Positions 22,417 to 42,260 of a stretch of 64,000 bases of DNA are shown here, in pieces (position 1 is the stretch's first letter; every line of letters starts with the position of its first letter). The DNA lies in assembly GCA_021404785.1 (NCBI GenBank), contig QWHH01000008.1, positions 1-64,000 on the forward strand, in the 5' to 3' direction. A program made the translations under genes and the position numbers. Under the pieces are notes generated by a model. The model searched no databases and had not been told where the DNA came from. It saw nothing but the letters and a program-made list of their open reading frames with translations. The stretch comes from Lysobacterales bacterium PRO7. Its GTDB lineage: Bacteria; Pseudomonadota; Gammaproteobacteria; Xanthomonadales; Rhodanobacteraceae.

Positions 22417-23097
22417 TCATACGGCGTCGCGGCTGCGACTGCGCTTCAGTACGGCTGGTACGCCAGCAACAAGAGTGTCAGGTTGCACATTCCTCGTTAC
22501 ACATGCTCCCGCGGCTACAACGGCGTCACATCCGATCACGAGAGGCAGGCCAGCCTTGCCATTGATAACATTTGCTCCAGCGCCAAGGAAAACACCGGAT
22601 CCCGTTCTGACATTCCCAGATATGTGGACGCTGGGTGATAGTGTTGAGAAGTCGTCCACTGTCACGTCGTGGCTCAGGGTACAGGCGATATTTACATGTA
22701 CATGCCGTCCAATTTTTACGTTTGTGGTAAGAATTGATCCGGCACACACGATTGACCCATCGTCGATTTCGACTCGCGATGAACGAATCACACTCGGATG
22801 TACAAGTGTTAGAGGTTGCATGCCGAGTTTGTTGCAAAGAGTGGAGAGGCGTTTACGTTGCGCGCCGTCACCCACGGCAATGACGTAATGAGAGAATTTT
22901 CTGGAAATGCGGTCATCAAGAGAAATTACCGGTATATCGTCGATTGCGTCCGTGACAGAAAATTCCGGTTCGACTGCAAACGTGAGTTCAATGTTGGAAC
23001 CGTAAATGTCTCGTGCAAGCCAGGCGACCTCTCGACCGGACCCGCCCGCGCCGACGATCAGCAAGTCGCGAATTCGGTTTGAGATGGCCTCGCTCAT
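22417..23097 (-). CDS. Sugar O/N-acyltransferase, NeuD/PglD type (left-handed beta helix)
   Basis: A 226-residue protein with an N-terminal Rossmann-like PglD_N domain (DLLIVGAGGSGREVAWLARD) and a C-terminal hexapeptide-repeat helix (SIVCAGSILTTNVKIGRHVHVNIACTL and so on) with the conserved catalytic-type His region LSHDVTVDDFSTLSPSVHISGNV. It ends in the AGVPAVLKR signature. Such enzymes acetylate amino-sugar nucleotides. It overlaps the upstream DegT aminotransferase by ATGA, so the two likely act in sequence: transamination, then N-acylation of a deoxysugar nucleotide. Confidence 0.85.
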   Translation of the reverse strand: MSEAISNRIRDLLIVGAGGSGREVAWLARDIYGSNIELTFAVEPEFSVTDAIDDIPVISLDDRISRKFSHYVIAVGDGAQRKRLSTLCNKLGMQPLTLVHPSVIRSSRVEIDDGSIVCAGSILTTNVKIGRHVHVNIACTLSHDVTVDDFSTLSPSVHISGNVRTGSGVFLGAGANVINGKAGLPLVIGCDAVVAAGACVTRNVQPDTLVAGVPAVLKRSRSRDAV

Positions 23098-25201: not shown

Positions 25202-25990
25202 TCAACCTTCCAGCTTGCGCATCGTCCACATGTCGCCGGCCAGGTTGCCGTCGTCCAGGTAGGCATAAGGCATCGTGCAATAGCCCTTCTGGCCCCAGGC
25301 ACGGCCCCAGGAATTGCGTACGATGAACCGCTTCGCGCCGTCGTCGTAGCCCACCGCGCAGACCGCGTGACCGCCGAGCACGCGCTCGCTTTTCTTCGGC
25401 AGCGGCACGGTGCCGGTTGCAGCTACCGCGTCGGACTCGAAGCTGTCGTACACGGTAAAGCCGAACACGAACGGATAACCCGAGGCGAGGCAGGCGCGCA
25501 TGTCCGTCAGCGTCGACAGGCGCTGGTAGCTCGAAATCGTGTGTGCCGTCGCCTGTGCGTAGCAGGCCGCAGTCGGCTTGGCCGCGAATTTCTTGATCGC
25601 ATACGGCCAGAGTCTTTCCGTGCACACGCCCTGCTTGGTCAGGGTCTTGATGCCGTCGCGCAGCATCGCGCCTGCGTCCTGATTCACCGAATGCTCGATC
25701 ACGCGCTCGTTGTAGTAGACGAACAGGCGCGACAGGTTCGCCACCGGCTGCTTCTGCTTGCGTTCGAGAAATTCCAGCGCGCCGACCAGCGCATTCGCCG
25801 TGCAACTGCCGAGCTGGCCCTGGTCCTCGATGGCCGAGCACGCCTTGCGCAAGTCCACCTTGGCCGGCAGTTTCTTCGGCGCCGCGTGCACGGCCGCGTA
25901 CAGGTGATCGCGTTGGTCGGGCAGGTCGGGAATCCAGCCGTACCAGGCGGGATTGCGGATGGTGGTGGTGGCGGAGTTGCGGGTGGGCAT
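25202..25990 (-). CDS. Papain-like (C1A family) cysteine protease
   Basis: A 262-residue protease. The oxyanion Gln57 and catalytic Cys63 are in DQGQLGSCTANALVG, His208 in LGGHAVCAVGYDD and Asn226 in FIVRNSWGRAWG, so the whole papain catalytic set is present with normal spacing. The N-terminus TTIRNPAWYGWIPDLPDQRD is the short propeptide-like segment typical of bacterial C1A enzymes. No signal peptide or membrane segment is visible, so it is probably cytoplasmic or exported by an unknown route. Its first 36 codons recur at 26955-27058 in a truncated copy. Role unknown. Confidence 0.9.
   Translation of the reverse strand: MPTRNSATTTIRNPAWYGWIPDLPDQRDHLYAAVHAAPKKLPAKVDLRKACSAIEDQGQLGSCTANALVGALEFLERKQKQPVANLSRLFVYYNERVIEHSVNQDAGAMLRDGIKTLTKQGVCTERLWPYAIKKFAAKPTAACYAQATAHTISSYQRLSTLTDMRACLASGYPFVFGFTVYDSFESDAVAATGTVPLPKKSERVLGGHAVCAVGYDDGAKRFIVRNSWGRAWGQKGYCTMPYAYLDDGNLAGDMWTMRKLEG
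25884..25990. repeat. Direct repeat, copy A (5' end of intact protease gene)
   Basis: About 105 bp covering the start codon and first 36 codons of the cysteine protease gene. It matches copy B at 26955-27058 closely by eye, both in DNA and in the encoded segment IRNPAWYGWIPDLPDQRDHL. The two copies bracket the MntA/HepT-type pair. Confidence 0.85.
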
Positions 25991-26522: not shown

Positions 26523-26813
26523 TCACAGCGGAACACCCGTCAGGCGCGCAATCTCGACGATCGGCCGCTCGCGTTGGCCGGGCCATGTGGTGAGCACGTC
26601 AACAGGTCGGCCGAGTTGCTGCTCCAGCCTGGCGGCCAAGGCGATCTCGCGGGCCAGTGCGACTTTTTCGGGTAGTTCGATCAGCAGGTCGATGTCGCCG
26701 CCTGTGGCGGTTTCATCCACGCGCGAACCAAACACGCACACACGCGCCTCGCTGCCGAGCCCCTCACGAACCAGCGCGCGAATGATCTGGACTTGTTGAT
26801 CGCTCAGTCGCAT
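26523..26813 (-). CDS. Minimal nucleotidyltransferase, MntA-like antitoxin
   Basis: A 96-residue nucleotidyltransferase with VFGSRVDETATGGDIDLLIEL: the Gly29-Ser30 and the Asp40-x-Asp42 pair form the catalytic core (GS-x9-DxD). In type VII toxin-antitoxin systems, MntA proteins inactivate the HEPN RNase HepT by AMPylating the tyrosine of its RX4HXY motif. The HEPN partner follows directly on the same strand. The ATG at 26813 (MRLSDQQVQIIRALV) is preferred; a longer form from 26876 overlaps the truncated protease copy. Confidence 0.85.
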   Translation of the reverse strand: MRLSDQQVQIIRALVREGLGSEARVCVFGSRVDETATGGDIDLLIELPEKVALAREIALAARLEQQLGRPVDVLTTWPGQRERPIVEIARLTGVPL

Positions 26814-27058
26814 GGCCGCAAGATCGCATACAACGAATTGGAAGGCAAAGATTGAATGGCGTCGCCTGCATGCCATTCCAACGCGCTGGTCACGCCGTCG
26901 GTGAGGTTGAAGTAGCGCGTCGCCCCTGCATCATGCTTGACCGAATGCTCGATCGCATGCACGGCCGCGTACAGATGGTCGCGCTGGTCGGGCAGGTCGG
27001 GAATCCAGCCGTACCAGGCGGGATTGCGGATGGTGGTTGTGGGGTAGCGGGTTTTCAT
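26804..27058 (-). pseudogene. Truncated, internally deleted copy of the papain-like protease
   Basis: An 84-codon frame. Residues 1-35 match the N-terminus of the intact protease almost exactly (TTIRNPAWYGWIPDLPDQRD). They are then joined to IEHSVKHDAGA, which corresponds to residues 98-108 of the intact protein, after which the sequence is unrelated. The join removes the QGQLGSC active-site cysteine, and the His and Asn regions are lost, so it cannot be a protease. Its ATG overlaps the TGA of the upstream GT2 gene (ATGA), so it may still be translated. Best read as a decayed duplicate. Confidence 0.78.
26955..27058. repeat. Direct repeat, copy B (5' end of truncated protease copy)
   Basis: Partner of the repeat at 25884-25990, in the same orientation, with its outer end at the ATG of the truncated copy. 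The repeats are about 1 kb apart with the nucleotidyltransferase/HEPN genes between them, so recombination between them could delete that pair. Confidence 0.85.
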
Positions 27059-28062
27059 GCGTCATCGATCGGTTCGGGCCTGGCTTCACTTCCATGGGAA
27101 CGAGCCGCGTGCGGCCCAGGATGTGCGCCGAGCCCAAGGCGTCGTACCCGCCATTCCGTGCGTTCCAGCAAGCGTCGGTTCGTTGCCATCAGATCCGCCA
27201 GAAAACCCAGTACGAACATCAGGAACCCGAGGATAACCGAAAGCGCGGCGAAGACGACCGATTGCACGTGGCCATTGCCGTCGCCGGCCAGATAGAACGC
27301 CAGAAAGCGAATGCCCGCGGCCAAGCCGATCACGGTAAAAGCACCGCCGATCAGCCAGAAGAACAGCATCGGCCGGTAGGTGGCGAAAATGCGCACGATG
27401 GTCGCCAGCGAACGCAGCACGTAGCCTGCATTGCTCTTGACCAGGCGCGATGGGCGCATGTCCGGATTGGTGCGGACCGGTACCGAGATCACGCGCATGT
27501 TGCTGTGGCCGGCCTGGATGATGGTTTCCAGCGTGTAGGTGTAGGAATTGAAAACATTCAGGCGCAAGGCGACGTCGCGCGTCATCGCGCGAAACCCGCT
27601 CGGGGCGTCTGCGACATTGGTGCGCGAAACCAGCCGCACGACCCGGCTGCCAAGCTTCTGCAGCCAGCGTTTGATCGGCGAAAAGTGCCGTGTGGTTTCA
27701 ATCGGGCGCGCGCCGATCACGAATTCGGCCTGCCCTTCGACAATGGGTTTGACCAGGGTCGCGATATCGCGCGCATCGTACTGGTTGTCGGCATCGGTGT
27801 TGACGACAATGTCGGCGCCTTGCCCCACGGCGGTTTCCAGGCCCGTCATGAACGCGGCGGCAAGGCCGCGGTTGGCGGGGTGACGCACGACATGATCGGC
27901 GCCCAGGTGCCGAGCCGCTTCGGCTGTATCGTCGGACGAGCCATCGTCGATTACCAGCCATTCGACCGTGTCGCAGCCGGGCACGCTGCGCGGCAACGCG
28001 GCCAGCGATACGGGCAGCGAATCCGCCTCGTTGAAACACGGGACCTGGATGATCAGTTTCAT
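27055..28062 (-). CDS. Polyprenyl-phosphate-sugar synthase-like GT2 (DPM1/DPMS type) with membrane anchor
   Basis: A 335-residue protein. The GT-A domain shows IIQVPCFNEADSLP (residues 4-17), LVIDDGSSDDTAEAA, VVNTDADNQYDARDI (DxD) and DAPSGFRAMTRD. Two C-terminal membrane segments lie near residues 230-256 and 268-292. This is the layout of dolichol/undecaprenyl-phosphate mannose or glucose synthases, which make the lipid-linked sugar donors used by GT-C enzymes. It lies 41 bp downstream of two such GT-C genes on the same strand, so donor supply for them is a reasonable inference. The tail beyond residue 300 is Arg-rich and variable. Confidence 0.87.
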   Translation of the reverse strand: MKLIIQVPCFNEADSLPVSLAALPRSVPGCDTVEWLVIDDGSSDDTAEAARHLGADHVVRHPANRGLAAAFMTGLETAVGQGADIVVNTDADNQYDARDIATLVKPIVEGQAEFVIGARPIETTRHFSPIKRWLQKLGSRVVRLVSRTNVADAPSGFRAMTRDVALRLNVFNSYTYTLETIIQAGHSNMRVISVPVRTNPDMRPSRLVKSNAGYVLRSLATIVRIFATYRPMLFFWLIGGAFTVIGLAAGIRFLAFYLAGDGNGHVQSVVFAALSVILGFLMFVLGFLADLMATNRRLLERTEWRVRRLGLGAHPGPHAARSHGSEARPEPIDDA

Positions 28063-28103
28063 GGTATGCGCGATAGCTCAGACGGCCACACCTGATCCGG
28101 AGT

Positions 28104-30059
28104 CTACCGGTTTGACGGATCGCTGGGCAGTTGCGGTGCCGGTGCCACTGCTGTTTGGGCGGCCGCGGCGGCGGCATTCAGGTGTGCGATTTCCGCATCG
28201 AGTGCGCCGAAACGGTTGAGTTTCTGCAACGCGTCGATGGCTGCCGGAATTTTGTCGAACTGGCGTGTTGAAATCAGCAGCCGCACCAGGTTGGCCGCGT
28301 AAGTGGGGTTGCTCGGACTCGCCGCCACCACGTCGCGCAGCAAGCGCTCGGCGAGCGCGGCATCGCCGAGTTCATGCAGTGCGAAATCGGAATAGGCGGA
28401 CATCAGGTTGAGATTGCCGCCCGAGCGTTCCAGCCCGGCCACGAACGTGCTCAGCAATTCTTGTTTCTGGGTGGGGCAAGTGCCGTCCTGTTGGCAATGG
28501 AACAGAAAGATGATCGCGGCGATATCCGATTGCGAAGGAGCACGTTCATGCAATTTGGCCACGATCGCCTGCCACCAGCGCGGATCAATGGGTCGGTGCG
28601 CACGGCCGTTGATGTAGATCAGGGCCTGCAGGGAAGTGATGCCGCTGTTGGGCTGATAGGCGTTGCGTTCGAGAATCTTTGTGGCCTCGTCGATCAACGG
28701 GGATTTTTCGTCCTTGCCGGCGGCTACGATGAGGGTGCGCGCCAGTTCGTATTGTGCGCGTTGCGAATCCGGGCGCTTGAGCGCTTCGGAATAGGCAAGC
28801 CGAATCGGGTTCGACCATTCCTCGGCGCGCAGGAAGGTGGTGAATGCGAGAAATGCGATGAATCCCGCGCCAAGCAGCGTTTTGGCAGCGGGTAGACGAA
28901 GCCCCGGTTCGAGCGCGATCAGCGACGCCACGGCGAGCAGCAGGCCGACCGACGGGAAGTAATTGCGGTGCTCGAAAACGAGTTCCAGCGGAATGATCGT
29001 CGCGGTCATCGAATGACCGGCAAAAAACCACAGTATGCCGAGGCAGAACAACGGTCGTGCCTTGCGCTGCCACAGTGCGATGCCGAGAAGGCCGAGCAGC
29101 GCAAGAATCGCGGTCAGCGTTGTTGGTGGGTCGATGAGACCGTGCGATAGGGCGATATCGTCGTGATAGAACGTGAGCGAATTCAGATTCGGCAGCAGTG
29201 TCCAGCCGATGTAATCGCATAACACGCGCGGTTCGGTCAGCAATCGTTGCACGGTGGTGAAGGTGCGGTAACCCGAAACGCCATGGAAGATGCGCGGCGC
29301 GATCCAGATCAATCCGGCGATCATCGGGGCGACAAGCAGGGCGAGATGGGTGCCGATGGCTGGCTTGCACCAGTGGCCATCGCGATTGCGGAATCCGGTA
29401 ATCGCAAATTCCGCGCACGCGGTGAACAACGGCAGCAGCGCAGCGTCTTCCTTCGCGGTCAGACCCAACGCCGTGCACACCGCGATGCTGATCCACAGCA
29501 TCGCGGTTCCGCCGTCGCCCGCGAGTTGACCGCGCCGCGCGCGCAGATACCACCAAAGCCCAAGAAACACGAACACGTTGGCAAGTGCTTCCATGCGTTG
29601 CGATACGTAGGCCACGCCGGTCAGGTTGATCGGCAACAGCAGCCATGCGCCGGCGATGAAGGCAGCGACGAGATCACGGTTATTCTCGATCGCGCGGACA
29701 ACGTTGTTCAGGCGAAACAGCTCGCGCAGCAGCGCGAACAGCAGCAGGCCGTTGAGCAGGTGGATGACCAGGTTGGTGAGCTTGGGCCAGAACGGATCGA
29801 TGCCGGTGAAATACCAGTTCGCCGCGAACGTCAATGCACTCAACGGGCGGCACAGCAGGTTGACGCTGCATTGCGATGTGGCCGCGCGCATCCATTCGCC
29901 CAGTTGCAGCGTCGTGACGTGAACGCCGGGGTTCTCGGCGAAATAGATGCCGTCGTCGAACATGTAGCCGCCGTGGAGCGAAGGCCAGTAAGCCAGCGCA
30001 GTCGCGGCCATCAATGCCATCAGCAGAATCCAGGCGCGGCGGGCGTTCGGCGGGGTCAT
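28104..30059 (-). CDS. GT-C/TMTC-like polytopic membrane protein with C-terminal TPR region (copy 1)
   Basis: A 651-residue protein with about 10 membrane segments in residues 10-410 and a helical TPR-like region from about 425. The first loop has YMFDDGIYFAENP, an Asp-Asp motif as in GT-C enzymes, followed by LCRPLSALTFAANW and HLLNGLLLF. Further on, VFEHRNYFPS and EEWSNPIRLAYSEALKRPDSQRA match the layout of eukaryotic TMTC O-mannosyltransferases and DUF1736 relatives. Such enzymes use polyprenyl-phosphate sugars to O-glycosylate exported proteins. It is 10 bp from a paralogue and near the pilins; the pilin target is an inference. Confidence 0.75.
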   Translation of the reverse strand: MTPPNARRAWILLMALMAATALAYWPSLHGGYMFDDGIYFAENPGVHVTTLQLGEWMRAATSQCSVNLLCRPLSALTFAANWYFTGIDPFWPKLTNLVIHLLNGLLLFALLRELFRLNNVVRAIENNRDLVAAFIAGAWLLLPINLTGVAYVSQRMEALANVFVFLGLWWYLRARRGQLAGDGGTAMLWISIAVCTALGLTAKEDAALLPLFTACAEFAITGFRNRDGHWCKPAIGTHLALLVAPMIAGLIWIAPRIFHGVSGYRTFTTVQRLLTEPRVLCDYIGWTLLPNLNSLTFYHDDIALSHGLIDPPTTLTAILALLGLLGIALWQRKARPLFCLGILWFFAGHSMTATIIPLELVFEHRNYFPSVGLLLAVASLIALEPGLRLPAAKTLLGAGFIAFLAFTTFLRAEEWSNPIRLAYSEALKRPDSQRAQYELARTLIVAAGKDEKSPLIDEATKILERNAYQPNSGITSLQALIYINGRAHRPIDPRWWQAIVAKLHERAPSQSDIAAIIFLFHCQQDGTCPTQKQELLSTFVAGLERSGGNLNLMSAYSDFALHELGDAALAERLLRDVVAASPSNPTYAANLVRLLISTRQFDKIPAAIDALQKLNRFGALDAEIAHLNAAAAAAQTAVAPAPQLPSDPSNR

Positions 30060-30069
30060 GGCTTGGACG

Positions 30070-32082
30070 TCACTTTGCCGATTGAGCTGTGGGCAGGTCT
30101 TGCTGCAATGCCTGCCGCAGGTGTGCGATTTCGTTCTGCCAGTAGCCTTGCCGCTTCAGTACCCAGGCATGCAAGGCGGCCATCGACCATCCGCCACCGC
30201 TCTGGTCGGTTTTCCAGACCGTTTGCAGGTGATCCAGTTCCAGCAGGCCCTGCCGCGGATAGCCGGCCGCACCGAGCTGTGCAGCCTGATTGAGCGCTGC
30301 GCCCGGATCCGGCTTGGCATCGAGTGCCTGATTGAAATATGCAAGAGCCGAATCCGGGTCGTGCAAGGCCAGGGCAAGGCTGCCGCGCAAACTGAAATTG
30401 TCCTGACGCCGGCCCGCGCTTTCCGCTGCGTTCGGATTGGCAGCAGCGGCATCGAGCAAGCGTCGAATCACCTCGGCATCCAGTCCAGCGCAATGCTTTC
30501 CGCGGGCGATGCGCGCGATGGCTTCGTCGAACCAGTCGTAGCCCAGGCGGCCGGTGATGCGCGCATTGCGCAAGGCGGCATCTGCACGCGCGATGTCGGC
30601 GGGCGCAACGTGGCCCAGTTCGCATTCGGCTCCGACAAGGTTCAATGCAATCTGTATGTCGTCGTCCGCCGCGACGTGCACGTCGCGCAAGCGTGCGACG
30701 GCCAGGTCCGGCCTGCCGCGTGCGCGTTCGGCCGCCGCTGCGTACGCTTGGGCGCGCGGCGATGCCGGATTCTTTTCTGCCCACATTTGCGCTTGTTGCT
30801 GGGCGTTGCCCCACAAGTCCGCACGAAAATAGGTCATGCCGGCGAACAGCAGCGGCAGGAGAACGATCAGGGTTCGCCGCGCGGGCACGGCGTGGCCTGC
30901 GCCGGTCAGCCACAATGCCAGTGGCCAGAACATGAGCAGCGCCGGCAGATAGTTGCGATGTTCGTAGTACAGTTCCAGCGGAATCACGGTCGATTCGAGC
31001 AACTGGCCGACGAAGTAGAACACGATGGCCAGCGCCAGTGCCGGCGCACGCTTGCGAATCGCGACGGCGCCCGCGATCAGCGCGGCGAGAAACACGATCG
31101 CCGCGAGTGTGCTTGGCGGCGAGAGCAGGCCGGTAGACACCGGAAAGGCGTCGTTGAACAGCCCGGCCGTGTACGGATGCGGCAGCCAAAGCAGGGCGAG
31201 GTAGTCGCAGACGATACGCGCTTCGGTGAGCAGTCGTTCGCCGAACGTCCACGGCCGGAAGGCCGGCGCACCGTGCAATGAAAAATACAGACCCTGCTGG
31301 GCAAGCCATGCCAGCACGATGCTGCTCGGCAGGATCAGGACCGCAAGTCGCATCCAGGCGAACCGGCGCCGCAGGGCTGCCTGGGCGATAGGCAATGCGG
31401 GCGCCAACACGATGGCGTCGGCCAGCCATGCGAGCAAGGGCAAGAGAATGCCATTGGCCTTGCTGGCCAGTCCCAGCCCCGTGCAAGCGCCAATGGCCAG
31501 TGCTGCGATCCATACACCCGAAGATTTGCCGCGCGCGGCGAGCTCGCGTCCGCGACAATAACCGAGCAGGCCCAGCAGCACGAAAGTCGTCGGCAGCATC
31601 GCCTCGCGCTGCACCACATAGAGAGTCGTCGATACGAACAGCGGATGCAGCAGCCACAGTGCAGCGCCCAGCGCCGCGGCCAGGTCGACTCGCATCGATT
31701 GGCCGTGCAAGGTCCGTCCGAGGCGACGCAGGAGCAACGCCAGCAACAGGCCGTTGACGATATGCAGGATCAGGCTGGTGCGCTTGAAAGGAAACGGATC
31801 GGCCGGCCAGTCGCGCGCATCGATCAGGAAACTGAGCAGGGCCAGCGGCCTGCCGGTGGGGTCGGCGGCGCCGGAGGTGATGTAGCGCCAGAATGCGGGC
31901 CAGTTGTCGATGGGGCCGGTCGCGCCGAGGGTCGGAAGATTGGCGAAATCATCGAACAGGAACACGCCATGCAGGCCGCGCAGGTATGCCAGGGCGGTGA
32001 GCGACGCCGCCAGCGCGAGTAATGCCCAGAATGCCGTGCGCGTTTGCGCAGCGCGTTGTGCAGCACGTTGGCGAAAACTCAC
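30070..32082 (-). CDS. GT-C/TMTC-like polytopic membrane protein with C-terminal TPR region (copy 2)
   Basis: A 670-residue paralogue of the proteins at 28104 and 34904. It has GVFLFDDFANLPTLG in the first periplasmic loop, TGRPLALLSFLIDA, LILHIVNGLLLALLL, a YEHRNYLPALLMFWP segment and the DLWGNAQQQAQMWAEKNPASPRA transition into the TPR-like tail (residues 420-650). About 10 membrane segments precede the tail. It starts about 110 bp downstream of the pilin stop at 32195, with the pilin terminator between. Predicted inner-membrane glycosyltransferase with a periplasmic active site; direct evidence of activity or target is lacking. Confidence 0.75.
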   Translation of the reverse strand: MSFRQRAAQRAAQTRTAFWALLALAASLTALAYLRGLHGVFLFDDFANLPTLGATGPIDNWPAFWRYITSGAADPTGRPLALLSFLIDARDWPADPFPFKRTSLILHIVNGLLLALLLRRLGRTLHGQSMRVDLAAALGAALWLLHPLFVSTTLYVVQREAMLPTTFVLLGLLGYCRGRELAARGKSSGVWIAALAIGACTGLGLASKANGILLPLLAWLADAIVLAPALPIAQAALRRRFAWMRLAVLILPSSIVLAWLAQQGLYFSLHGAPAFRPWTFGERLLTEARIVCDYLALLWLPHPYTAGLFNDAFPVSTGLLSPPSTLAAIVFLAALIAGAVAIRKRAPALALAIVFYFVGQLLESTVIPLELYYEHRNYLPALLMFWPLALWLTGAGHAVPARRTLIVLLPLLFAGMTYFRADLWGNAQQQAQMWAEKNPASPRAQAYAAAAERARGRPDLAVARLRDVHVAADDDIQIALNLVGAECELGHVAPADIARADAALRNARITGRLGYDWFDEAIARIARGKHCAGLDAEVIRRLLDAAAANPNAAESAGRRQDNFSLRGSLALALHDPDSALAYFNQALDAKPDPGAALNQAAQLGAAGYPRQGLLELDHLQTVWKTDQSGGGWSMAALHAWVLKRQGYWQNEIAHLRQALQQDLPTAQSAK

Positions 32083-32141
32083 GTTGCACGATCCGAGGCG
32101 GCCATCGATTCAAGCATAGGCGAAGCCGTTTTGCACAGCCA

Positions 32142-32172
32142 GAAAAAAGAAGGGCCGCGTGCGCGGCCCTTC
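32142..32172 (-). terminator. Rho-independent terminator after pilin gene 1
   Basis: On the minus strand a 10-bp perfect GC-rich stem (GAAGGGCCGC / GCGGCCCTTC, loop of 4) is followed by a run of T residues (A residues at 32142-32148 on the plus strand). It ends the pilin transcript just past its stop at 32195, which suits a highly expressed monocistronic pilin gene. Confidence 0.92.
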
Positions 32173-32194
32173 GATGTTACATGTTGCAATGAAA

Positions 32195-32635
32195 TCAACG
32201 GCAGGAAGTCGGCAAATATTTCGCGTTGACATTGGTGCCGCCGCTTGTCTTGCATGACCACGCCAGACTGCCGCCACCGCTGCTGTAGGAAGAGAACACC
32301 AGCTTGCTGCCCGCGATCTTGGCGTTGGCCTGGTTGCCATACGTCACTTCGATCTTGCCCGCAGTGGAAACATCAACCTGGGTGACGTAATTACCGATGA
32401 TGGACGTTTTGCTCGCAAGACCGGCGGACGCATTGTTGGTCGGATATGCGCCGCGGTTGGAGTAGTACTCGGCCACAGCGGTCTTGGCGCCATCGGCGAG
32501 CACGGAACCTTCCGACACCTGCGAACGGATCACGTAATCCTGATAGGCCGGCAGCGCGATGGCCGCCAGAATGGCGATGATCGCGACCACGATCATCAAT
32601 TCGATCAGGGTAAAGCCCTTTTGCATCTTGTTCAT
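32195..32635 (-). CDS. pilA: Type IV major pilin PilA, copy 1
   Basis: A 146-residue type IVa pilin. It has a short class III leader (MNKMQKG), cleavage before Phe8 by PilD, Glu12 (fifth residue of the mature form) and the long hydrophobic helix [25 protein letters not shown]-terminal disulfide loop is bounded by cysteines in [11 protein letters not shown] and LPTSC. The start is supported by the leader. A sigma-54-like promoter lies at 32766-32781 and a strong terminator follows. The first 40 mature residues are nearly identical to copy 2 and the globular domain differs. Confidence 0.95.
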
Positions 32636-32765
32636 GACGATTCCTCAAGAGTTGAGTTAGCTAACCATGCAGCATCAAACGTTTGCCCCTGAATTTCTGC
32701 CGGGCCCGGCTGGCCTGCGCGTCCGTGGCTCCTAGCCCGGATCGGCGGAAACTCGTAAGAACTTT

Positions 32766-32781
32766 AGCACGTTCCATGCCA
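32766..32781 (-). promoter_or_regulatory. Sigma-54 (-24/-12) promoter-like site for pilin gene 1
   Basis: The minus strand reads TGGCATGGAACGTGCT: GG, ten bases, GC, with TGGCA at -24 and TGC at -12. Consensus is TGGCAC-N5-TTGCW. pilA is sigma-54/PilR-dependent in Pseudomonas, and pilR and pilS are encoded nearby. The predicted leader is about 120 bases, somewhat long. Confidence 0.6.
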
Positions 32782-32834
32782 TGATCGACACGCCACGCGC
32801 GCATGAAGAAATGCGAAACCGGTCACGCTATTTG

Positions 32835-32845
32835 GTCTTAAAGAC
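32835..32845. promoter_or_regulatory. Palindrome upstream of the pilin 1 promoter, possible PilR site
   Basis: GTCTT-A-AAGAC is a perfect 11-bp palindrome, and on the minus strand it extends to GGTGTC. Reported PilR-binding elements contain a (C/G)TGTC core. It lies about 54 bp upstream of the -24 element, a plausible enhancer position. Only one copy is clear. Confidence 0.3.
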
Positions 32846-32903
32846 ACCGTTCGGTTCAGCAATGCCACCAGTTTGAGCACTTGCGATGCGAAAGCCGACG
32901 TTC

Positions 32904-32922
32904 TGCGTCAACCGATGACGCA
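32904..32922 (-). terminator. Hairpin after pilin gene 2
   Basis: A 7-bp perfect stem (TGCGTCA / TGACGCA) with a 5-base loop lies 36 bp past the stop of pilin gene 2. It lacks a clear U-tract, so it is at most a weak terminator or an mRNA-stabilising hairpin. Confidence 0.35.
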
Positions 32923-32957
32923 ATTGGTCAGTCGAAACCTGAAAATGCGAGGATGAC

Positions 32958-33389
32958 CTAACGGCAACTCGTGGGTAGAAACTTGCCGCTGATCGTGGTG
33001 CTGTGACAAGTCCAAGGAATCGAACCGGCCTTGGTGTTCGGAGACATAAGCAAGGTCAGGCCGGAAATCTTGGCGTTGGCGTCGCGCCCATACGTGACGG
33101 TAATGACGCCGCCAGTCGCATCGAGCTGATCGACATAGTTGCCGATGATGCTGGTCGGCGTCGCCAAACCGGTAGACGCGTTGTTCGGCGGCATCCGCCC
33201 GGTGTTGGCGATGAAATCCCACACTGAGGTCTTGGCGCCATCGGCCAGCGAGAGGCCTTCCGAGACTTGCGCACGGATGACGTAATCCTGATAGGCGGGC
33301 AGCGCGATCGCGGCCAGGATCGCGATGATCGCCACCACGATCATCAACTCGATCAGGGTGAATCCGGCAGGTTGTCTGGGCTGGTACAT
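32958..33389 (-). CDS. pilA: Type IV major pilin PilA, copy 2
   Basis: A 143-residue type IVa pilin: leader MYQPRQPAG, PilD cleavage before Phe10, the conserved Glu14, then the same [20 protein letters not shown] helix as copy 1. The C-terminal cysteines are in SIPWTCHS and LPTSC. It directly follows pilR and has a very good -24/-12 promoter ending about 20 bases before the start. The GGGGGA run at 33394-33399 (minus strand) can serve as the ribosome-binding site. Two adjacent pilins with divergent globular domains suggest antigenic or functional variants, or a mixed fibre. Confidence 0.95.
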
Positions 33390-33421
33390 GGCGTTCCCCC
33401 GCGCACGGTATTACCAACCAC

Positions 33422-33437
33422 AGCAAGAACCATACCA
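33422..33437 (-). promoter_or_regulatory. Sigma-54 (-24/-12) promoter of pilin gene 2
   Basis: The minus strand reads TGGTATGGTTCTTGCT: GG, exactly ten bases, GC, with a perfect TTGCT at -12. It lies between the pilR stop and the pilin ATG, with a predicted leader of about 22 bases. Upstream activator sites would have to lie inside the 3' end of pilR. Confidence 0.78.
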
Positions 33438-33452
33438 GCAGTATTGACCGTT

Positions 33453-34823
33453 TTAGTCGATACCCAGCTTTTTCAGCTTGTAGCGCAGCGCGCGGAACGT
33501 GATGCCGAGCTTCTTGGCCGCGGCGGTCTTGTTGTAGCGGGTTTCGAGCAGGACTTTTTCGATCGCTTCGCGTTCGATGTTGCTGATGTAACCCTCAAGG
33601 CCGCCGTCGCCACCCGGGCCGTCATCGCCGTCATCCTCTTCGGCGGCGGGAAGCGCGCTGGCCTTCTGCGCGGATGCCGGGACAAGGCGCAGGTCGTCGG
33701 GTTTGATCGTGTTCGCCTCGCACAGTGCAACCGCGCGTTCGAGCACGTTTTCCAGCTCGCGCACATTGCCGGGAAAGGCATACGTGAGCAGCGCCGACAG
33801 GGCTTCCGGCGTGAGCTTGGCGGGCGGCTGGCCGCTGCCGGTGGCGAGGCGTTCAAGCACGCGACCGGCTAGTTTGGGAATATCGTCGCGGCGTTCGCGC
33901 AATGGCGGCACGCGCAGCTCGATCACATTGATGCGGTAGTACAAGTCCTGGCGGAAGTGCGCGCTTTCCACGAGCTTGGCCAAGTTCTTGTGCGTGGCCG
34001 AAAGGATGCGCACGTCCACCGGTACTTCGGCGCGGCCGCCGATCGGGCGCACGGCTTTTTCCTGGATTACACGCAGCATCTTCACCTGCATGTGAATCGG
34101 CAATTCGGCGACTTCGTCGAGGAACAGGGTGCCGCCGTTCGCGGCCTGGAACAGGCCGTCCTTGTCGGCCTGCGCGCCGGTGAAGGAGCCTTTCTTGTGG
34201 CCGAAGAATTCCGATTCCATCAGTTCGGACGGAATCGCGCCGCAGTTGACCGGCACAAACGGCCCGGATGCGCGCGGGCCTTGCTCGTGGATCAGGCGCG
34301 CGACCAGCTCCTTGCCGACGCCGGATTCGCCACTGATGTAGACCGGCGCCTGACTGCGCGCAAGCTTGGCGATCGTGATGCGAAGTTCGGCAATCGCCGG
34401 CGAATCGCCGAGCATCTTCGCCGCACCGGCGCTGGGCGGTTCGGTTTTTTTGTCCTCGGCCAGCTTCAGCGCGGTCTGCACCAGCCGGCGCAGCATGGCG
34501 ATGTCGACCGGCTTGGACACGAAATCGAACGCGCCGGCCTTGAGCGCGTTTACCGCGGCGTCGACATTGCCGTAGGCGGTGATCATCGCGACCGGTGTTT
34601 CCGCGTACTGCGCGTTGATCAGCTCGATGATTTCCTGGCCCGAACCATCCGGCAGGCGCATGTCGGTGAAGCAAAGTGCATAGCGTGATTCGGCAAGGCG
34701 CTGCTTCGCCTCGGAAACATTGCTCGCGGTTTCCACGCGCAGGCCCATGCGTCCAAGCGTGATCGTCAAGAGTTCGCGGATGTCGCGTTCGTCGTCGATG
34801 ACGAGGGCGGTGGGGTTGGCCAT
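33453..34823 (-). CDS. pilR: Sigma-54-dependent response regulator PilR
   Basis: A 456-residue NtrC-family activator. It has a receiver domain (residues 5-120, acidic pocket in VIDDERD, phospho-Asp in CFTDMRLPDGSG), an AAA+ domain (about 140-375) with Walker A GESGVGKELVA, the sigma-54 contact loop GSFTGAQ and Walker B LFLDEVAELP, and a Fis-type helix-turn-helix at the C-terminus (NKTAAAKKLGITFRALRYKL). It activates pilin transcription with PilS. Here it is separated from pilS by a GT-C gene, an unusual arrangement, and directly precedes pilin gene 2. Confidence 0.96.
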   Translation of the reverse strand: MANPTALVIDDERDIRELLTITLGRMGLRVETASNVSEAKQRLAESRYALCFTDMRLPDGSGQEIIELINAQYAETPVAMITAYGNVDAAVNALKAGAFDFVSKPVDIAMLRRLVQTALKLAEDKKTEPPSAGAAKMLGDSPAIAELRITIAKLARSQAPVYISGESGVGKELVARLIHEQGPRASGPFVPVNCGAIPSELMESEFFGHKKGSFTGAQADKDGLFQAANGGTLFLDEVAELPIHMQVKMLRVIQEKAVRPIGGRAEVPVDVRILSATHKNLAKLVESAHFRQDLYYRINVIELRVPPLRERRDDIPKLAGRVLERLATGSGQPPAKLTPEALSALLTYAFPGNVRELENVLERAVALCEANTIKPDDLRLVPASAQKASALPAAEEDDGDDGPGGDGGLEGYISNIEREAIEKVLLETRYNKTAAAKKLGITFRALRYKLKKLGID

Positions 34824-34903
34824 GGGCTGGACGATAAGGGAAATCGTGGCGAAGGTGAAGCGGAAAACCGAAACCTGTTGTCGATCGAAGGGGGGGGTCG
34901 GGC

Positions 34904-36694
34904 CTAGCGCCGCAGTTTGGCGGCGTTGATGAAGTCATCGAGCGATTTTCGGTGCACATCCCGCTCGGCAGGGGCATACAATTCAATGGCCTTGTCCGCT
35001 GCGGCTTGTGCTTCGGGCAGCCGACCCTGGCGAGCGAGAAAATAGGCGAGTTGCTCGGCCGCCAGCGGATCGTGCGGGTCAGCGGCAATTGCATCGCGAA
35101 ATGAGCTTTCCGCATCCGCCGTCGCACCTTTCATCTCTTCAAGTTCGCCCGTCGCGACCATGAATCCTTGCCGCAGTCTCGGTTCATAAAGCAGTTCCAT
35201 GCCTTCGTTCCGGATGCGTGCAAGTGCTTTGGCCGCATTCTTGGAGTCGCCGTAGAGAAGGCTGAGATTGGCGATATTGAGCAGGCAGTTCGCGCAGCGT
35301 CGTTTGTCGTCGAGCAGACTGCTGGCCAGCGCGCGCGCAGGTGCGTAGTCGCCACGGCGCATGTATTCGGAGAGCAAATGATCCTTGACCACTATCGAGT
35401 CGGGATTCTGGCGCAAGGCCCATTGCCACAGGTTGAGTTCGTCGGACCACATCGGAATCGTGGCGCGTATGTTGAATACGGCCAGAACCAGCCAACCCGC
35501 CACGACGAGGGCGAGCACGGCACGCAGCAATCGCAGCCCTGCCGTTCGACGCAGTGCGGCACTAACCACGGCGGGAAGCCAGGCGGCGCCCATGGCAATG
35601 GCCAACATCGCATAGCGCTCGTGGTACAGGCTTTCGACGAACAGTGTGGGAACGATATTCAGCACGGGCGTCAGCGCTAGGCTGAAGGCCAGGATGAATG
35701 CGCCGATGGGCCGGCCTTTGAGGAATGACGCGAAGCCCGCGCTTGCGATCAGCACGCTCGCGACATCGATGCCGAGCATGGCAACATCGAATTGCGCGAA
35801 GCGCTCGGCATCGACGATGTGCAGCGGTCCAAGACCGACCATGGGCCACAAGCCGATGCGCCAGTACGAAAGATAGGTGTAGCAGATCTTCTGGAAGTGC
35901 TGGATCGAGAATAGGTGCTCGCCGCCAATTGGCTTGACGAGATGGCCCAGCGCGAAGTCTCTTAGCGCCAGATAGGCGATACCGGCCGCCAGCACGCCTG
36001 CGTAGACCAGACCTTGCCGGCGCCACAGACGTTGCAATGCGTCGCGGTCCGGATGTACGCCGGTCAGCGCGGCCGCATCGAAAAGCATCAGCAGCAAAGG
36101 CAGGCAGGCCGCCGACTCTTTGGCGCAGGCGGCGAGGAAAAAACACGACGCCACGGCCAGCGCGCGGGGAATCGTGCGAACGATGGCTAGATTCAGCCAG
36201 AGTGCGAGCAACACGAACAATGTGGCAACGAGGTCGTACTGACACGAGATCCAGACGACGGGCTCCACCAGAGCGGGATGAAGCCCGTAGACCAGCATCG
36301 ACAGCGCTGCGAGGTACGGGCGCAGGGTCGTCGTATCGCGCTGCAGCTGCAACGCCAGCATGCCGACCAGCGTGGTGTTGGCCAGATGCAGGGCCAGTGA
36401 CACGAGATGAAGCGGCATTGGCGCTGCGTGGAACAGGCGGATTTCCACCGAGTACAGTGCCAGCACGAGCGGGCGGAAATAGTTGACCCAGTTCTCGACG
36501 CCGCCGAGCAAGTAGCGCCACCAGTCACTGCTGCGCAGCGATGCGGTATCCAGGAACGTACTCTTGTCGTCCCAGACAAATCCAGCATGCCAGACGGGCC
36601 AGTAAACGAGCGCGATAATCGCAAGAATGCCGACGACCAGAAAACTCAACGCCACGCGAGCGTTGCGGAGAAACGAAAAAGCCGGGATCTGCAT
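34904..36694 (-). CDS. GT-C/TMTC-like polytopic membrane protein with C-terminal TPRs (copy 3), between pilS and pilR
   Basis: A 596-residue relative of the proteins at 28104 and 30070, more diverged. It has AGFVWDDKSTFLDTASLRSS in the first loop, NYFRPLVLALYSVEIRLF, LALHLANTTLVGMLAL, a YHERYAMLAIAMG segment and the IPMWSDELNLWQWALRQNPDSIV transition to TPR repeats (about 430-590, ending in PHDPLAAEQLAYFLARQGR-type units). It lies 10 bp downstream of pilS and 80 bp upstream of pilR, so it is probably co-transcribed with the two-component genes. Predicted protein O-glycosyltransferase. Confidence 0.75.
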   Translation of the reverse strand: MQIPAFSFLRNARVALSFLVVGILAIIALVYWPVWHAGFVWDDKSTFLDTASLRSSDWWRYLLGGVENWVNYFRPLVLALYSVEIRLFHAAPMPLHLVSLALHLANTTLVGMLALQLQRDTTTLRPYLAALSMLVYGLHPALVEPVVWISCQYDLVATLFVLLALWLNLAIVRTIPRALAVASCFFLAACAKESAACLPLLLMLFDAAALTGVHPDRDALQRLWRRQGLVYAGVLAAGIAYLALRDFALGHLVKPIGGEHLFSIQHFQKICYTYLSYWRIGLWPMVGLGPLHIVDAERFAQFDVAMLGIDVASVLIASAGFASFLKGRPIGAFILAFSLALTPVLNIVPTLFVESLYHERYAMLAIAMGAAWLPAVVSAALRRTAGLRLLRAVLALVVAGWLVLAVFNIRATIPMWSDELNLWQWALRQNPDSIVVKDHLLSEYMRRGDYAPARALASSLLDDKRRCANCLLNIANLSLLYGDSKNAAKALARIRNEGMELLYEPRLRQGFMVATGELEEMKGATADAESSFRDAIAADPHDPLAAEQLAYFLARQGRLPEAQAAADKAIELYAPAERDVHRKSLDDFINAAKLRR

Positions 36695-36704
36695 GGATCG
36701 GCGC

Positions 36705-38384
36705 TTATGTCCCTGTCGTTCGGCGTACTAGCGCCGGCGCTGCCGGCAGCGTGATGCGGAAGCAACTGCCGCCGCCCGCGACGGGCACGTATTCCAGCGT
36801 GGCCTGGTTCGCGTCGCACATGGTGCGCGCGAGGTAAAGGCCCAGTCCCGTGCCGTATTCGTGGGTGGTGAAGAACGGCTCGAAGATCTGCGCGGCGACT
36901 TTCGCCGGAATGCCGGGTCCGCGGTCGACCACTTCGATCAGCGGCGGGCCTTTGTCGCTGAGCATTCGCGCCACCACCGCCACCCGCGCCGGTTCGCCCG
37001 GTTGGCGGCCGTAGCGCAGCGCGTTCTGCACCAGGTTCCAGACCACCTGCTGCATCTGCTGCGGATCGGCCAGCGCCTCGACCTGGCGCGCCTGCGTGAT
37101 CGCGCGCAACTGGTCCGCGCCCAGGTCATTGCCGAGTTTGTATTCGTCGACGAAGCGCTGCGCCCACACCGAAAGATCCAGACTCTCCGGCCGCGAACGT
37201 TCGCGTCGCGACAATTGCAGGATGTTCTCGACGATTTCGTTCACGCGGCTGCAGTGGTTGTTGATGATCTCGACCATGCGCTTGTCCTCGTCCGACATGG
37301 TCTCGGATTCGGCGAGCAGTTGCGCCGAATAGCTGATCGCGGCCAGCGGGTTGCGGATTTCGTGCGCGATCGAGGCGGACAGGCGCCCGAGCGAGGACAG
37401 GGTCAGTTCCTCGGCGCGGCGCGATACCAGCGAGGTGTCGTCGAGAAAGATCAGCACGTTTTCGTCGTCCGCCGACGACAGGCGGGTGAAGCGCGGGATC
37501 ACCTCGGGCGCGCCGTCGGCCAGGGCCACGCCGGTGGAATCGATCTTGCCGGTGGTGCGCCAGTGGTAAAGGCGCCGCGACAGTTCCGGCGCCATCGTAC
37601 CGAGGTCGCGCTGTCCGGTTTTGGGATTGCCGATCAGCGCCCAGGCCGATTCATTCCAGCGGTGCACGCGGTTGGCGTCATCAACCACAAGTACGCCGGT
37701 CTTCATGCGCCGGATGATCAATTCGTTGATCTGGGCAAGGTTGGCGAGGTCGATGCCGCGCTGTTCGGCCAGTTCGGCGGTTTCGCGCATCTGCCGACGC
37801 AGCACCAGCGCGAGCGAGGTGATCGCGAAATAACCCAGGCCGTACAGGCCATACTCGATCAGGTTGCGGTCGCTGCCGTCGATGATGCGGCTGGCCAACG
37901 CCTGTCCGATCACGCACAGCGTTGCCAACGCGGCGAAGAATCCGGCCTGGCGCGGCGGCAACAGCAAGGCGCCGGCGCCGACATTGACCAGCAGCAGCAT
38001 GGCGATTGCACTGGGCGGGTTGGCGATCGCGAACAGCGCCACCGTGGTCGCGATGATGTCCAGGGTCAGCATCACGGCGACCTTCAGGCGCAGGTCCTGG
38101 CGCCAGTGCTCGGTGCGCAGCAGTGCGTAAGCCGACAACAGCAGGTAGACGACGGCGCTGATCTGGCCCAGCAGCGGGTGGTCCAGGCGCAAGCGGTTGG
38201 TCAGCAACGGGCTGAACATCAAGCCCGCGATCACGAACGCCTGCAGCACGCGGAACAGATTGAAGAAATACAGTTCGCGCCGGTCGATGTCGCGCAGCGC
38301 GGGATCGGTGTGGATGCTGGATTTCTGCGCTGAGTTCACTTCGATCCAGAAAGTCCGCCATCTCGCTCGCGACGAGTATAACAA
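36705..38384 (-). CDS. pilS: Sensor histidine kinase PilS
   Basis: A 559-residue membrane sensor. About six hydrophobic segments (residues 45-200) are followed by a PAS-like region (215-320, [20 protein letters not shown]), the dimerisation/phosphoacceptor helix with [23 protein letters not shown] (His near 348) and an HATPase domain ([28 protein letters not shown]). The first 15 residues are Arg/Trp-rich and unlike the family; a GTG at 38339 is a reasonable alternative start. In Pseudomonas, PilS senses pilin in the membrane through its transmembrane segments. Confidence 0.94.
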
Positions 38385-38412
38385 TGCAGCCGGCTGATTC
38401 GCGGCCTTTTAA

Positions 38413-38440
38413 TTGCCGGGGCGATTGATCACAATATACG
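38413..38440 (+). promoter_or_regulatory. Candidate promoter of sucCD
   Basis: TTGCCG (38413-38418), a 16-bp spacer and TATACG (38435-38440) lie about 40 bp upstream of the sucC ATG in the only gap between divergent pilS and sucC. Box match is moderate. Confidence 0.4.
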
Positions 38441-38480
38441 GCTTGCCGTAGCAGCTTGCGCGGCGTCCCCGAGGCAGCCC

Positions 38481-39641
<1,161 letters not shown>

Positions 39642-39650
39642 GGAATCACG

Positions 39651-40523
39651 ATGAGCGTATTGATCGACAAGAACACCAAGGTCATCTGCCAGGGCTTCAC
39701 CGGCCAGCAGGGCACGTTCCATTCCGAACAGGCGCTGGAATACGGCACCAAGCTGGTCGGCGGCGTCACGCCCGGCAAGGGCGGCGGCGAGCACATCGGC
39801 CTGCCCGTGTTCAACACGGTGCAGGATGCGGTCGACGAAACCGGCGCCGACGCGACGATGATCTTCGTGCCGCCGCCGTTCGCGGCCGACGCGATCATGG
39901 AAGCGGCCGACGCCGGGATCCGCGTGATCGTCGCCATCACCGAAGGCATTCCGGTGCTGGACATGCTGCGCGTGAAGAACGTACTCAAGCAATATCCCGA
40001 CACCGTGCTGATCGGCCCGAACTGCCCCGGCGTCATCACTCCCGGCGAATGCAAGATCGGCATCATGCCCGGCCACATCCACAAGCCGGGCAAGATCGGC
40101 ATCGTCTCGCGCTCGGGCACGCTCACGTATGAGGCCGTGTTCCAGACCACGAACGAGGGCTTGGGCCAATCCACCGTCATCGGCATCGGCGGCGATCCGA
40201 TCAATGGCCTGAATTTCATCGATTGTCTGAAACTGTTTCAGGGCGATGCGCAGACGCAGGGCATCATCATGGTTGGTGAAATCGGCGGCAGCGCGGAAGA
40301 AGACGCGGCCGAATTCATCGCCGAGTACGTGACCAAGCCGGTGGTGTCGTTCATCGCCGGCGCCAGCGCGCCTCCGGGCAAGCGCATGGGCCACGCCGGC
40401 GCGATCATCTCGGGTGGCAAGGGCACGGCGGCGGCCAAGTTCGCGGCGCTGGAAAAAGCCGGCGTGACCACGGTGAAATCGCCGGCGGATTTGGGCAAGG
40501 CGATTGCGGCAAGGTTGAAGTAA
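39651..40523 (+). CDS. sucD: Succinyl-CoA ligase alpha subunit SucD
   Basis: A 290-residue CoA-binding subunit. Visible landmarks are the CoA-site [16 protein letters not shown] (residues 12-27), [20 protein letters not shown], and the active-site histidine in [19 protein letters not shown] (near residue 248), which is phosphorylated during catalysis. Forms the heterotetramer with SucC. Transcription probably ends in the inverted-repeat element just downstream. Confidence 0.98.
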
Positions 40524-40534
40524 TTCCAAATTTC

Positions 40535-40627
40535 CGTCATTCCGGCCATGGATTGGCCGGAATCCAGGAGGCAGGATGCCATCACCAGCGAGCCAAAAGC
40601 TGGATTCCAGCTTGCGCTGGAATGACG
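40535..40627. repeat. 93-bp inverted-repeat element (MITE/REP-like)
   Basis: The element is bounded by perfect 9-bp inverted ends CGTCATTCC ... GGAATGACG. Nested inside are TGGCCGGAATCCAG and CTGGATTCCAG in opposite orientation, so the whole can fold into a branched hairpin. This is the familiar CGTCATTCC-type intergenic repeat of Xanthomonadales and other proteobacteria, usually in many genomic copies. It fills the gap between sucD and nadE and may act as a transcript terminator or stabiliser. Confidence 0.8.
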
Positions 40628-40646
40628 AGCCAACGAGCGCGCCGGC

Positions 40647-42260
40647 ATGGCAGTCCTTAAATTCGCTCTCGCCCAATTCGACTTCCCCGTTGGCGCGGTC
40701 GCGCGCAACGGTGAGCGCGTGCGCGAACTGATGCAGCAGGCGCGTGTGGCGGGCGCCCAACTCATCGCGTTTCCGGAACTCACGCTGTCCGGCTATCCAC
40801 CGGAGGACCTGCTGCTGCGGCCGAGTTTTCTTGCCGCATGCGAGCGCGAGTTGACCGAAGTCGCGAAGGTCGCCGATGGTATCGCGGCTTTCGTCGGCCA
40901 TCCGCATGCGATGGGCGAAGTATACAATGCCGCATCACTGCTGGCGGCCGGCAAGATGCAGTTCACTGCGCACAAGCAAGCGCTGCCAAACTACACGGTG
41001 TTCGACGAGAAGCGTTACTTCCGCCCCGGCCACGATTCGGCGGTGGCGGATCTTTCCGGCGTGAGCGTCGGCTGGCTGGTCTGCGAGGACATCTGGGAAC
41101 CCGAGCCTGCCGCGCGCGCGGCATCGAAAGGCGCTGAGCTGCTCGTCGTCATCAATGCCTCGCCGTTCGATGTGGGCAAGTCGGCGCAACGCGATGAATT
41201 GCTCGCGCGGCGTGCGCGCGAGAATCACGTCGCGATAGCGTATTTGAATCTCGTCGGTGGTCAGGACGATCTCGTTTTCGACGGCGGTTCGTTGCTGGTG
41301 GAACCCGGTGGCCGCATCGCCGCGCGCGCGTCGGCGTTCGCCGATGCGCTGCTGCTGGCGGAATACGACAGCGCGACGCGCAAGTTCCGTGCGATCGATT
41401 GGCCGGTCGAGGCCGACGCCTCGCGCGAGGCGCGCGCGTACGCGGCGATCGTGCGCGGCATTGCCGACTATGTCGGCAAGAATCGTTTCCCGGGCGTGAT
41501 CCTCGGGCTATCGGGCGGCATCGATTCGGCGCTGACGCTTGCGCTCGCCGCCGATGCGCTCGGCGCCGACAAAGTAACCGCGGTACGGCTGCCGTCGCGC
41601 TACACATCCGGCCTGAGCAACGACCTTGCTGCCGAACAGGCGCAGGCGCTGGGCGTGGAATTGCTGACCATACCGATTGCCGCGCCGTTCGCCGGATTCC
41701 TCGACGCGCTTGCGCCCGCGTTCGCCGGCCGCGCGTCGGATGTCACCGAAGAAAACCTGCAATCGCGCTGCCGCGGCACGATCCTGATGGCGCTTTCGAA
41801 CAAGACCGGGCGCATGCTGCTCACGACCGGCAACAAGAGCGAATACGCGACCGGGTACGCCACGATCTACGGCGATATGTGCGGCGGTTACGCGCCGCTG
41901 AAGGATTGCTACAAGGAGCTGGTGTATGCGCTATCGCGATGGCGCAACCGCAACGCGGAGGTCATTCCGATTGCGGTGATTGAACGCGCACCCTCCGCGG
42001 AACTGCGCGAAAACCAGCGTGACGAGGATTCCTTGCCGCCGTACGCGACGCTCGACGCGATCCTTGAACGCTTCATCGAAGACGAACAGTCGCAGGCCGA
42101 GATCATTGCCGCGGGTTTCGACGAAGCAACCGTGCGGCGTGTGGCGAGACTGGTGCTGGCCAGCGAATACAAGCGTCGGCAAGCGGCGCCCGGGCCGAAA
42201 ATCTCCACACGTGCATTTGGCCGTGACCGGCGTTATCCGATCAGCTCGGGGTGGCGTTAA
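40647..42260 (+). CDS. nadE: Glutamine-dependent NAD+ synthetase
   Basis: A 537-residue two-domain enzyme. The N-terminal nitrilase-type glutaminase domain (1-250) has the Glu (IAFPELTLSGYPPEDLL), Lys (AHKQALPNYTVFDEKRYF) and Cys (LVCEDIWEPEPA) residues of the triad. The C-terminal synthetase domain has the PP-loop GLSGGIDSALTLALA (near 288) and TTGNKSEYATGYATIYGDMCGG. It amidates nicotinic acid adenine dinucleotide to NAD+ with glutamine as nitrogen source. The last 4 bp overlap the convergent bamD gene. Confidence 0.96.
   Translation: MAVLKFALAQFDFPVGAVARNGERVRELMQQARVAGAQLIAFPELTLSGYPPEDLLLRPSFLAACERELTEVAKVADGIAAFVGHPHAMGEVYNAASLLAAGKMQFTAHKQALPNYTVFDEKRYFRPGHDSAVADLSGVSVGWLVCEDIWEPEPAARAASKGAELLVVINASPFDVGKSAQRDELLARRARENHVAIAYLNLVGGQDDLVFDGGSLLVEPGGRIAARASAFADALLLAEYDSATRKFRAIDWPVEADASREARAYAAIVRGIADYVGKNRFPGVILGLSGGIDSALTLALAADALGADKVTAVRLPSRYTSGLSNDLAAEQAQALGVELLTIPIAAPFAGFLDALAPAFAGRASDVTEENLQSRCRGTILMALSNKTGRMLLTTGNKSEYATGYATIYGDMCGGYAPLKDCYKELVYALSRWRNRNAEVIPIAVIERAPSAELRENQRDEDSLPPYATLDAILERFIEDEQSQAEIIAAGFDEATVRRVARLVLASEYKRRQAAPGPKISTRAFGRDRRYPISSGWR

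Follow-up and report, generated by a model that had tools for sequence, protein, structure and literature searches.

A TfpW-like locus of Lysobacterales bacterium PRO7 that in all likelihood serves pilin glycosylation, with a widespread sister group of TfpW and a donor-synthase partner

The closest characterised relative that we found for the proteins described here is TfpW, reportedly the subject of a study by Kus et al. in 2008. Published excerpts describe this enzyme, which belongs to the group IV pilin cassette, as adding D-arabinofuranose (D-Araf) to pilin in Pseudomonas (para)aeruginosa, where the TfpX gene comes next in the cassette. Here, we analysed a stretch of 64,000 nucleotides from Lysobacterales bacterium PRO7 (assembly GCA_021404785.1, contig QWHH01000008.1, positions 1 to 64,000 of the forward strand; hereafter the window), in which three proteins combining a GT-C glycosyltransferase core with a tetratricopeptide repeat (TPR) tail are encoded around two type IV pilin genes. 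With a probability of roughly 0.82, we read these three proteins as periplasmic glycosyltransferases of the TfpW family that act on the adjoining pilins, using donors made by GT2 enzymes. In all likelihood it is a TfpW-type locus for pilin glycosylation, one that includes members of a distinct, widespread sister group together with a partner enzyme that would make the donor.

Other described systems share parts of this design. As far as the accessible sections of PMC12645811 go, TfpO/PilO, TfpM, PglS and PglL likewise mediate O-glycosylation of pilins or of proteins in general, often from genes beside a pilin gene, but they are O-antigen-ligase-type enzymes of another family. No protein of the window matches the corresponding Wzy_C domain, and the sole match in the genome (E <= 0.01) is a 407-aa gene lying between two glycosyltransferase-like genes, which we read, without a family search, as WaaL-like, in agreement with a first-pass annotation of the window that had seen no TfpO or PglL gene. 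The three-component GtrA/GtrB/Gtr systems (GT136) combine a polyprenyl-phosphate sugar synthase, a flippase and a GT-C enzyme for periplasmic glycosylation, according to the parts of PMC11127046 consulted; their acceptor is the O-antigen, whereas the acceptor proposed here is pilin. Finally, the eukaryotic O-mannosyltransferases TMTC1–4 also carry TPRs behind a GT-C core, and excerpts of PMC7801869 mention prokaryotic homologues, but their acceptors are cadherins and their DUF1736 loop is unmatched here.

The genes in question are all on the minus strand, in the order pilS (36705–38384), P0007 (34904–36694), pilR (33453–34823), the pilins P0005 (32958–33389) and P0004 (32195–32635), P0003 (30070–32082), P0002 (28104–30059) and the GT2 gene P0001 (27055–28062), where P0002, P0003 and P0007 are the GT-C+TPR proteins. 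All open reading frames (ORFs) of the first-pass annotation were recovered at their coordinates and on this strand, as was the grouping of three GT-C paralogues, two pilins, pilR/pilS and a GT2 that it had proposed as a pilin O-glycosylation system. A Rho-independent terminator with a 10-bp stem and six T (32149–32172, minus strand) separates P0004 from P0003, so that P0003 lies directly behind a pilin with a terminator between, as in the TfpW family, whereas P0007 is found between pilR and pilS.

P0002 and P0003 are clear paralogues (36% over 425 aa, E 9e-46), and P0007 is more distant (E 6e-12 against P0002, 1e-13 against P0003), these BLASTP E-values referring to single comparisons. The TfpW candidate of strain PA7, PSPA7_5160, matches P0007 at 28% over 442 aa (E 1e-35), the profile of the P0007 group at E 8.8e-34 and the P0002/P0003 profile at E 6.4e-12; this gene lies behind pilA and ahead of an ORF roughly the size of TfpX, and we therefore take it to be TfpW. 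Eleven positions, D44, D45, R78, P79, N110, P147, K208, Y294, R376, W424 and P439 (P0003 numbering), are common to all three proteins and TfpW of PA7. The acidic pair lies in the first extracytoplasmic loop and is conserved, its first Asp being variable in some members of the P0007 group. The sequence motifs that the first-pass annotation had described as shared are present, except that the core of P0002 ends in R-P-D-S rather than N-P-x-S and P0007 has H-E-R-Y rather than E-R-x-Y.

In a tree built with a quick method and rooted at the midpoint, with the TfpW gene entered twice, the P0007 group and a Pseudomonadaceae group containing TfpW form a clade of 17 rows (SH-aLRT, the Shimodaira–Hasegawa-like approximate likelihood ratio test, 100), while P0002 and P0003 fall among 145 rows apart from this clade. 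Judged by sequence, the three proteins are thus TfpW homologues, of which P0007 groups with TfpW itself. They share with TfpW a homologous GT-C core, the same acidic pair, the gene position directly behind pilA and a TPR-like tail, the last read from the TfpW sequence and from profile matches in other members. They differ in that TfpW takes D-Araf as its sugar and has TfpX encoded behind it, whereas this locus has three paralogues, two pilins and GT2 donor-synthase candidates, and in that P0002 and P0003 stand outside the TfpW clade. TMTC proteins, to which the first-pass annotation had likened the three, gave way as nearest known relatives to TfpW, which offers a matching context and a known function: TMTC_DUF1736 (PF08409) gave no match at E 0.1 in P0002, P0003 or P0007, a comparison made through this domain and not with TMTC sequences themselves. 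A search for PF08409 across 185 genomes also found no match, controls included, and is hence uninformative.

Predicted structures of P0003 and P0007 match solved GT-C enzymes in a Foldseek list re-ranked by VIA-align, so that a GT-C core, as suggested earlier, is well supported by these models for both proteins and would extend to P0002 by homology to P0003. The proposed TPR tails held for P0007, which scores above the Pfam cut-off, and are weak and below it in P0002 and P0003. Searches of the PDB with GT-C profiles returned TPR proteins among the matches listed (the best 60 of 115 and of 192). A TPR domain and the position of a pilin accessory gene would also be expected of non-catalytic pilus assembly factors, as proposed for TfpY, but the Asp, Arg, Lys and Tyr positions invariant over the aligned groups, together with the GT-C fold, make this explanation very improbable.

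Next, we surveyed the neighbourhoods of homologues. Within the window's own family, a P0003 homologue (E <= 1e-6) is present in 87 of 98 genomes and all 26 genera, a PF00114 pilin in 97 of 98 genomes, and a P0007 match (E <= 1e-6) in 34 of 98, of which 16 reach E <= 1e-90. Across the class, 200 of 369 genomes match at E <= 1e-6, though weak ones may be TPR matches only. We took the stretch around the best match in the 80 best genomes by rank, own genome excluded, with the second-best match used for two genomes (G230 and G343); these class loci and a named set of 80 loci have a few genomes in common. Of the 80 class loci, 57 (55 of 78 without the two second-best matches), spanning 41 of 53 families, have a pilin gene on the same strand no more than 5 kb upstream, and one has it elsewhere within 6 kb; 14 are unjudgeable because of contig ends. 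In control stretches taken from these genomes (n = 20, 16 kb each), the pilin pattern matched once, on a sequence unlike pilin, and no GT-C homologue was found. The link to pilins, for which a survey of this kind had been suggested, is therefore well supported and far above background. Per cluster (n = 143), pilins and enzymes occur at ratios of 1:1 (47), 2:2 (45), 2:1 (20), 1:2 (19) and others (12), so that the relation is not simply one enzyme per pilin. One locus, in a record labelled Verrucomicrobia (L126), carries a Nevskia-like pilin and GT-C cassette and is perhaps a mis-binned contig.

In Pseudomonadaceae, a profile scan found 25 of 298 genomes at E <= 1e-10, with the homologues directly behind pilA and pilB divergent where the stretch extends that far; a pilin is present at 19 of 20 fetched loci, and the exception begins at a contig end. 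Two Pseudomonadaceae loci (L230 and L231) have shorter GT-C genes (543–561 aa), weakly similar and behind a different pilin type, perhaps a further subfamily.

The terminator of the window recurs: a terminator follows within 150 nt of the pilin stop codon in 38 of 55 pairs from the class set, 54 of 63 from the named loci and 15 of 16 from Pseudomonadaceae, compared with 2.2, 3.2 and 0.8 expected from base shuffles. The same arrangement of pilin, terminator and accessory gene is described for P. aeruginosa pilin-accessory cassettes in the available portions of PMC11841053. Additionally, over 36 loci and uncorrected for the species tree, enzyme and pilin distances correlate beyond those of pilR (partial r 0.27, 0/2000), while pilin and pilS distances hardly do (partial r 0.09, 374/2000). 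The enzyme–pilin correlation would be expected alike if the enzyme is suited to its pilin or if the two are exchanged jointly as a cassette.

As for the donor, the first-pass annotation had pointed to P0001 as a DPM1-like synthase. P0001 is indeed of the polyprenyl-phosphate sugar synthase type, with DPMS (5mlz) and ArnC as its best PDB relatives and the two C-terminal hydrophobic segments that had been noticed, but as a donor enzyme it is not widely conserved. Close orthologues (E <= 1e-40) occur in 27 of 98 family genomes; in only two of these, one of them the window's own, is the gene no more than 1 kb away from a GT-C homologue among the matches listed (counted by eye). Relatives above 60% identity are found at seven of the 70 named loci with a P0002-type gene, namely in six of the seven loci where identity of the enzyme to P0002 reaches 44.5% or more and in one of the 63 others (L140), where the relative lies on the opposite strand and the tree puts the enzyme in the same subclade. 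We therefore rejected P0001 as a general donor enzyme, since it goes mainly with one GT-C subclade. A count of P0001-like GT2 genes behind the enzyme in 14 of 80 loci proved misleading, as 12 of the 14 are closer to another GT2 of the window, GT2x, and only L272 and L286 to P0001.

GT2x (15668–16516, plus strand), which was overlooked earlier, has C-terminal hydrophobic segments and resembles ArnC and DPMS more strongly than P0001 does; on sequence and gene order it is the widely conserved donor-synthase candidate. Of the 80 class loci, 60 have a homologue (56–72% identity), which in 48 (39 families) comes immediately after the GT-C gene and in 12 lies elsewhere in the stretch, and pilin, GT-C gene and GT2x occur together in 38 of 80; the 20 control stretches hold no match to GT2x or P0001. 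With L230 and L231 left out of the scoring, GT2x lies behind the enzyme in 10 of 11 Pseudomonadaceae loci outside the TfpW clade (including L222, too short for tree placement) and in none of seven within it, where the stretches extend about 1 kb past the enzyme; three of these seven, followed over some 15 kb, show no P0001-like GT2. Given this contrast between the class loci (48 of 80 with GT2x immediately after the enzyme) and the Pseudomonadaceae TfpW clade (0 of 7), we assign P0002 and P0003 to a broad sister group of TfpW that apparently has a donor synthase of its own.

The same 0 of 7, together with the grouping of P0007 with TfpW, would also fit P0007 alone being a true TfpW that attaches D-Araf, with P0002 and P0003 using other sugars. 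This we consider improbable: the ALO domain (PF04030), a proxy for DprE1, has no match in the window's own genome and is matched in 3 of 14 controls, so that D-Araf made by the known route is unlikely here.

The interval between pilB and the pilins forms a glycan stretch. Besides GT2x it holds a GT4 glycosyltransferase, a possible member of a glycan block (16974–18500, plus), a rhamnosyltransferase-like GT2 (18505–19446, plus) and then, on the minus strand, a Wzx-like flippase (Polysacc_synt; 20378–21601) that may move a lipid-linked sugar, a methyltransferase (21603–22388), a sugar acyltransferase of the NeuD/PglB/VioB family (22417–23097; 171.7 bits against a cut-off of 160.8) and a DegT aminotransferase resembling DesI, of the dTDP-4-dehydro-6-deoxyglucose aminotransferase type (23094–24263; 500 bits, under the 650 cut-off). 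The GC content of these sugar and flippase genes is lower, at 0.55–0.58 over 18–24 kb, and positions 18000–24000 are probably an acquired sugar island. Nine named loci, too, carry DesI-like genes (63–79% identity) close to the enzyme pair. Given the genes resembling DesI and NeuD, a 4-amino-4,6-dideoxy sugar is one candidate for the sugar attached.

This block of GT4, GT2 and Wzx-like genes could alternatively build an oligosaccharide that is transferred en bloc, making the three proteins oligosaccharyltransferases. In one locus of another family (L186), GT4-like and GT2 genes likewise lie between the enzyme and pilB, and a preprint, judging by its title, names TfpW both a glycosyltransferase and an oligosaccharyltransferase. 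Against this, what repeatedly comes immediately after the enzyme gene is a synthase of the type that makes single-sugar donors, and the GT4 is listed for about 10 of 80 class loci (counted by eye), leaving en bloc transfer a rather unlikely alternative to the transfer of single sugars.

In the mechanism we favour, GT2x and P0001 would each charge cytoplasmic polyprenyl phosphate with one sugar, which a flippase would move across the inner membrane. The inner-membrane GT-C core would take these polyprenyl-phosphate sugars, and the TPR domain at the C-terminus would probably face the periplasm, where it may hold the pilin. The conserved Asp pair would activate a pilin hydroxyl, so that Ser/Thr residues of the neighbouring pilins become glycosylated while still in the inner membrane. 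GT2x would most likely supply P0003 and its kin, and P0001 would supply P0002. The pilin and enzyme cassette is probably controlled by PilSR, with the terminator keeping the enzyme level under that of the pilin. Sigma-54-like promoter sites precede P0004 (32766–32781, minus) and P0005 (33422–33437, minus); both answer to a pattern devised after reading the sequence, and a search with the unmodified consensus missed them.

Several observations weigh against this interpretation. Pairwise, P0003 and TfpW are barely similar (E 8e-5), and the tree marks TfpW as a long branch, so that its placement is less sure. Foldseek without realignment gave only E > 1e-3, with TPR proteins at the top. GT2x is missing in 15 of the 80 class loci, with 5 unjudgeable, and in 60 of the 80 named loci, which come mostly from the window's taxonomic order, the stretch retrieved does not contain it (direct in 2, elsewhere in 10, unjudgeable in 8); in the window itself it lies 12–20 kb from the enzymes, beside pilB. 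At L286 and L272 the P0001-closest GT2 follows the enzyme, so that this pairing reaches beyond one subclade. The pilin alignment has no invariant Ser/Thr column, and glycosylation sites are not predictable from it. Enzyme distances also correlate with those of pilS beyond pilR, more weakly than with pilin (partial r 0.16, 35/2000, 36 loci). Finally, no pilin is found nearby in 8 of the 80 class loci, which, with sugar genes that could serve a polysaccharide, would suit proteins that modify another envelope glycan, lipopolysaccharide or exopolysaccharide, and sit beside pilins only for co-regulation; the pilin linkage across 41 families, the terminator cassette, the distance correlation with pilin and the homology to TfpW make this quite unlikely.

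Further out, pilC and pilB occupy 12487–15506, and sucC and sucD lie beyond pilS, in a host genome of 2.8 Mb that is 99.5% complete. The nearest relative found, a metagenome-assembled genome (L062, Proteobacteria), shows 74–91% over shared genes and 44–49% for its two P0007 homologues. L186 has pilins, GT-C gene, a marker antisense to GT2x, GT4, GT2, pilB and pilC in one run, which may be the older order. That marker, orf15491 (15491–16615, minus), was rejected as a gene in its own right, being a long shadow ORF antisense to GT2x; another (38409–40907, minus) is antisense to sucC/sucD. Adjoining P0001 is a papain-family C1 peptidase (25202–25990, minus), retained in L062 at 78%, and at 26523–26876 (minus) a small nucleotidyltransferase resembles MntA-type antitoxins (E 4.9e-6, below the cut-off).

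As a pilin glycosylation locus, this one is not categorically new. For the TfpW sister group, we found no description in the literature searched, mainly open papers, and no database family name; part of its spread is already known to the field, since PMC11841053, in the passages available, speaks of 'most TfpW-encoding species'. A more far-reaching proposal, to which we give even odds, is that the sister group forms a three-gene cassette with a polyprenyl-phosphate sugar synthase dedicated to it and the major pilin, and that this cassette is a main route of pilin O-glycosylation in Gammaproteobacteria; the TPR tail would dock the pilin, and paralogues, each served by its own donor synthase, would assemble the glycan one sugar at a time.

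TfpW, studied experimentally but seemingly exotic, is now tied to a family whose genes neighbour pilin genes in 41 or more bacterial families of a single class, and a likely donor enzyme can be named for many of its members, which makes pilin glycosylation testable in many bacteria. The family may also serve protein glycan engineering. Since pilin sugars guard Pseudomonas against pilus-specific phages, according to published excerpts, the family may provide a widespread layer of defence against phages.
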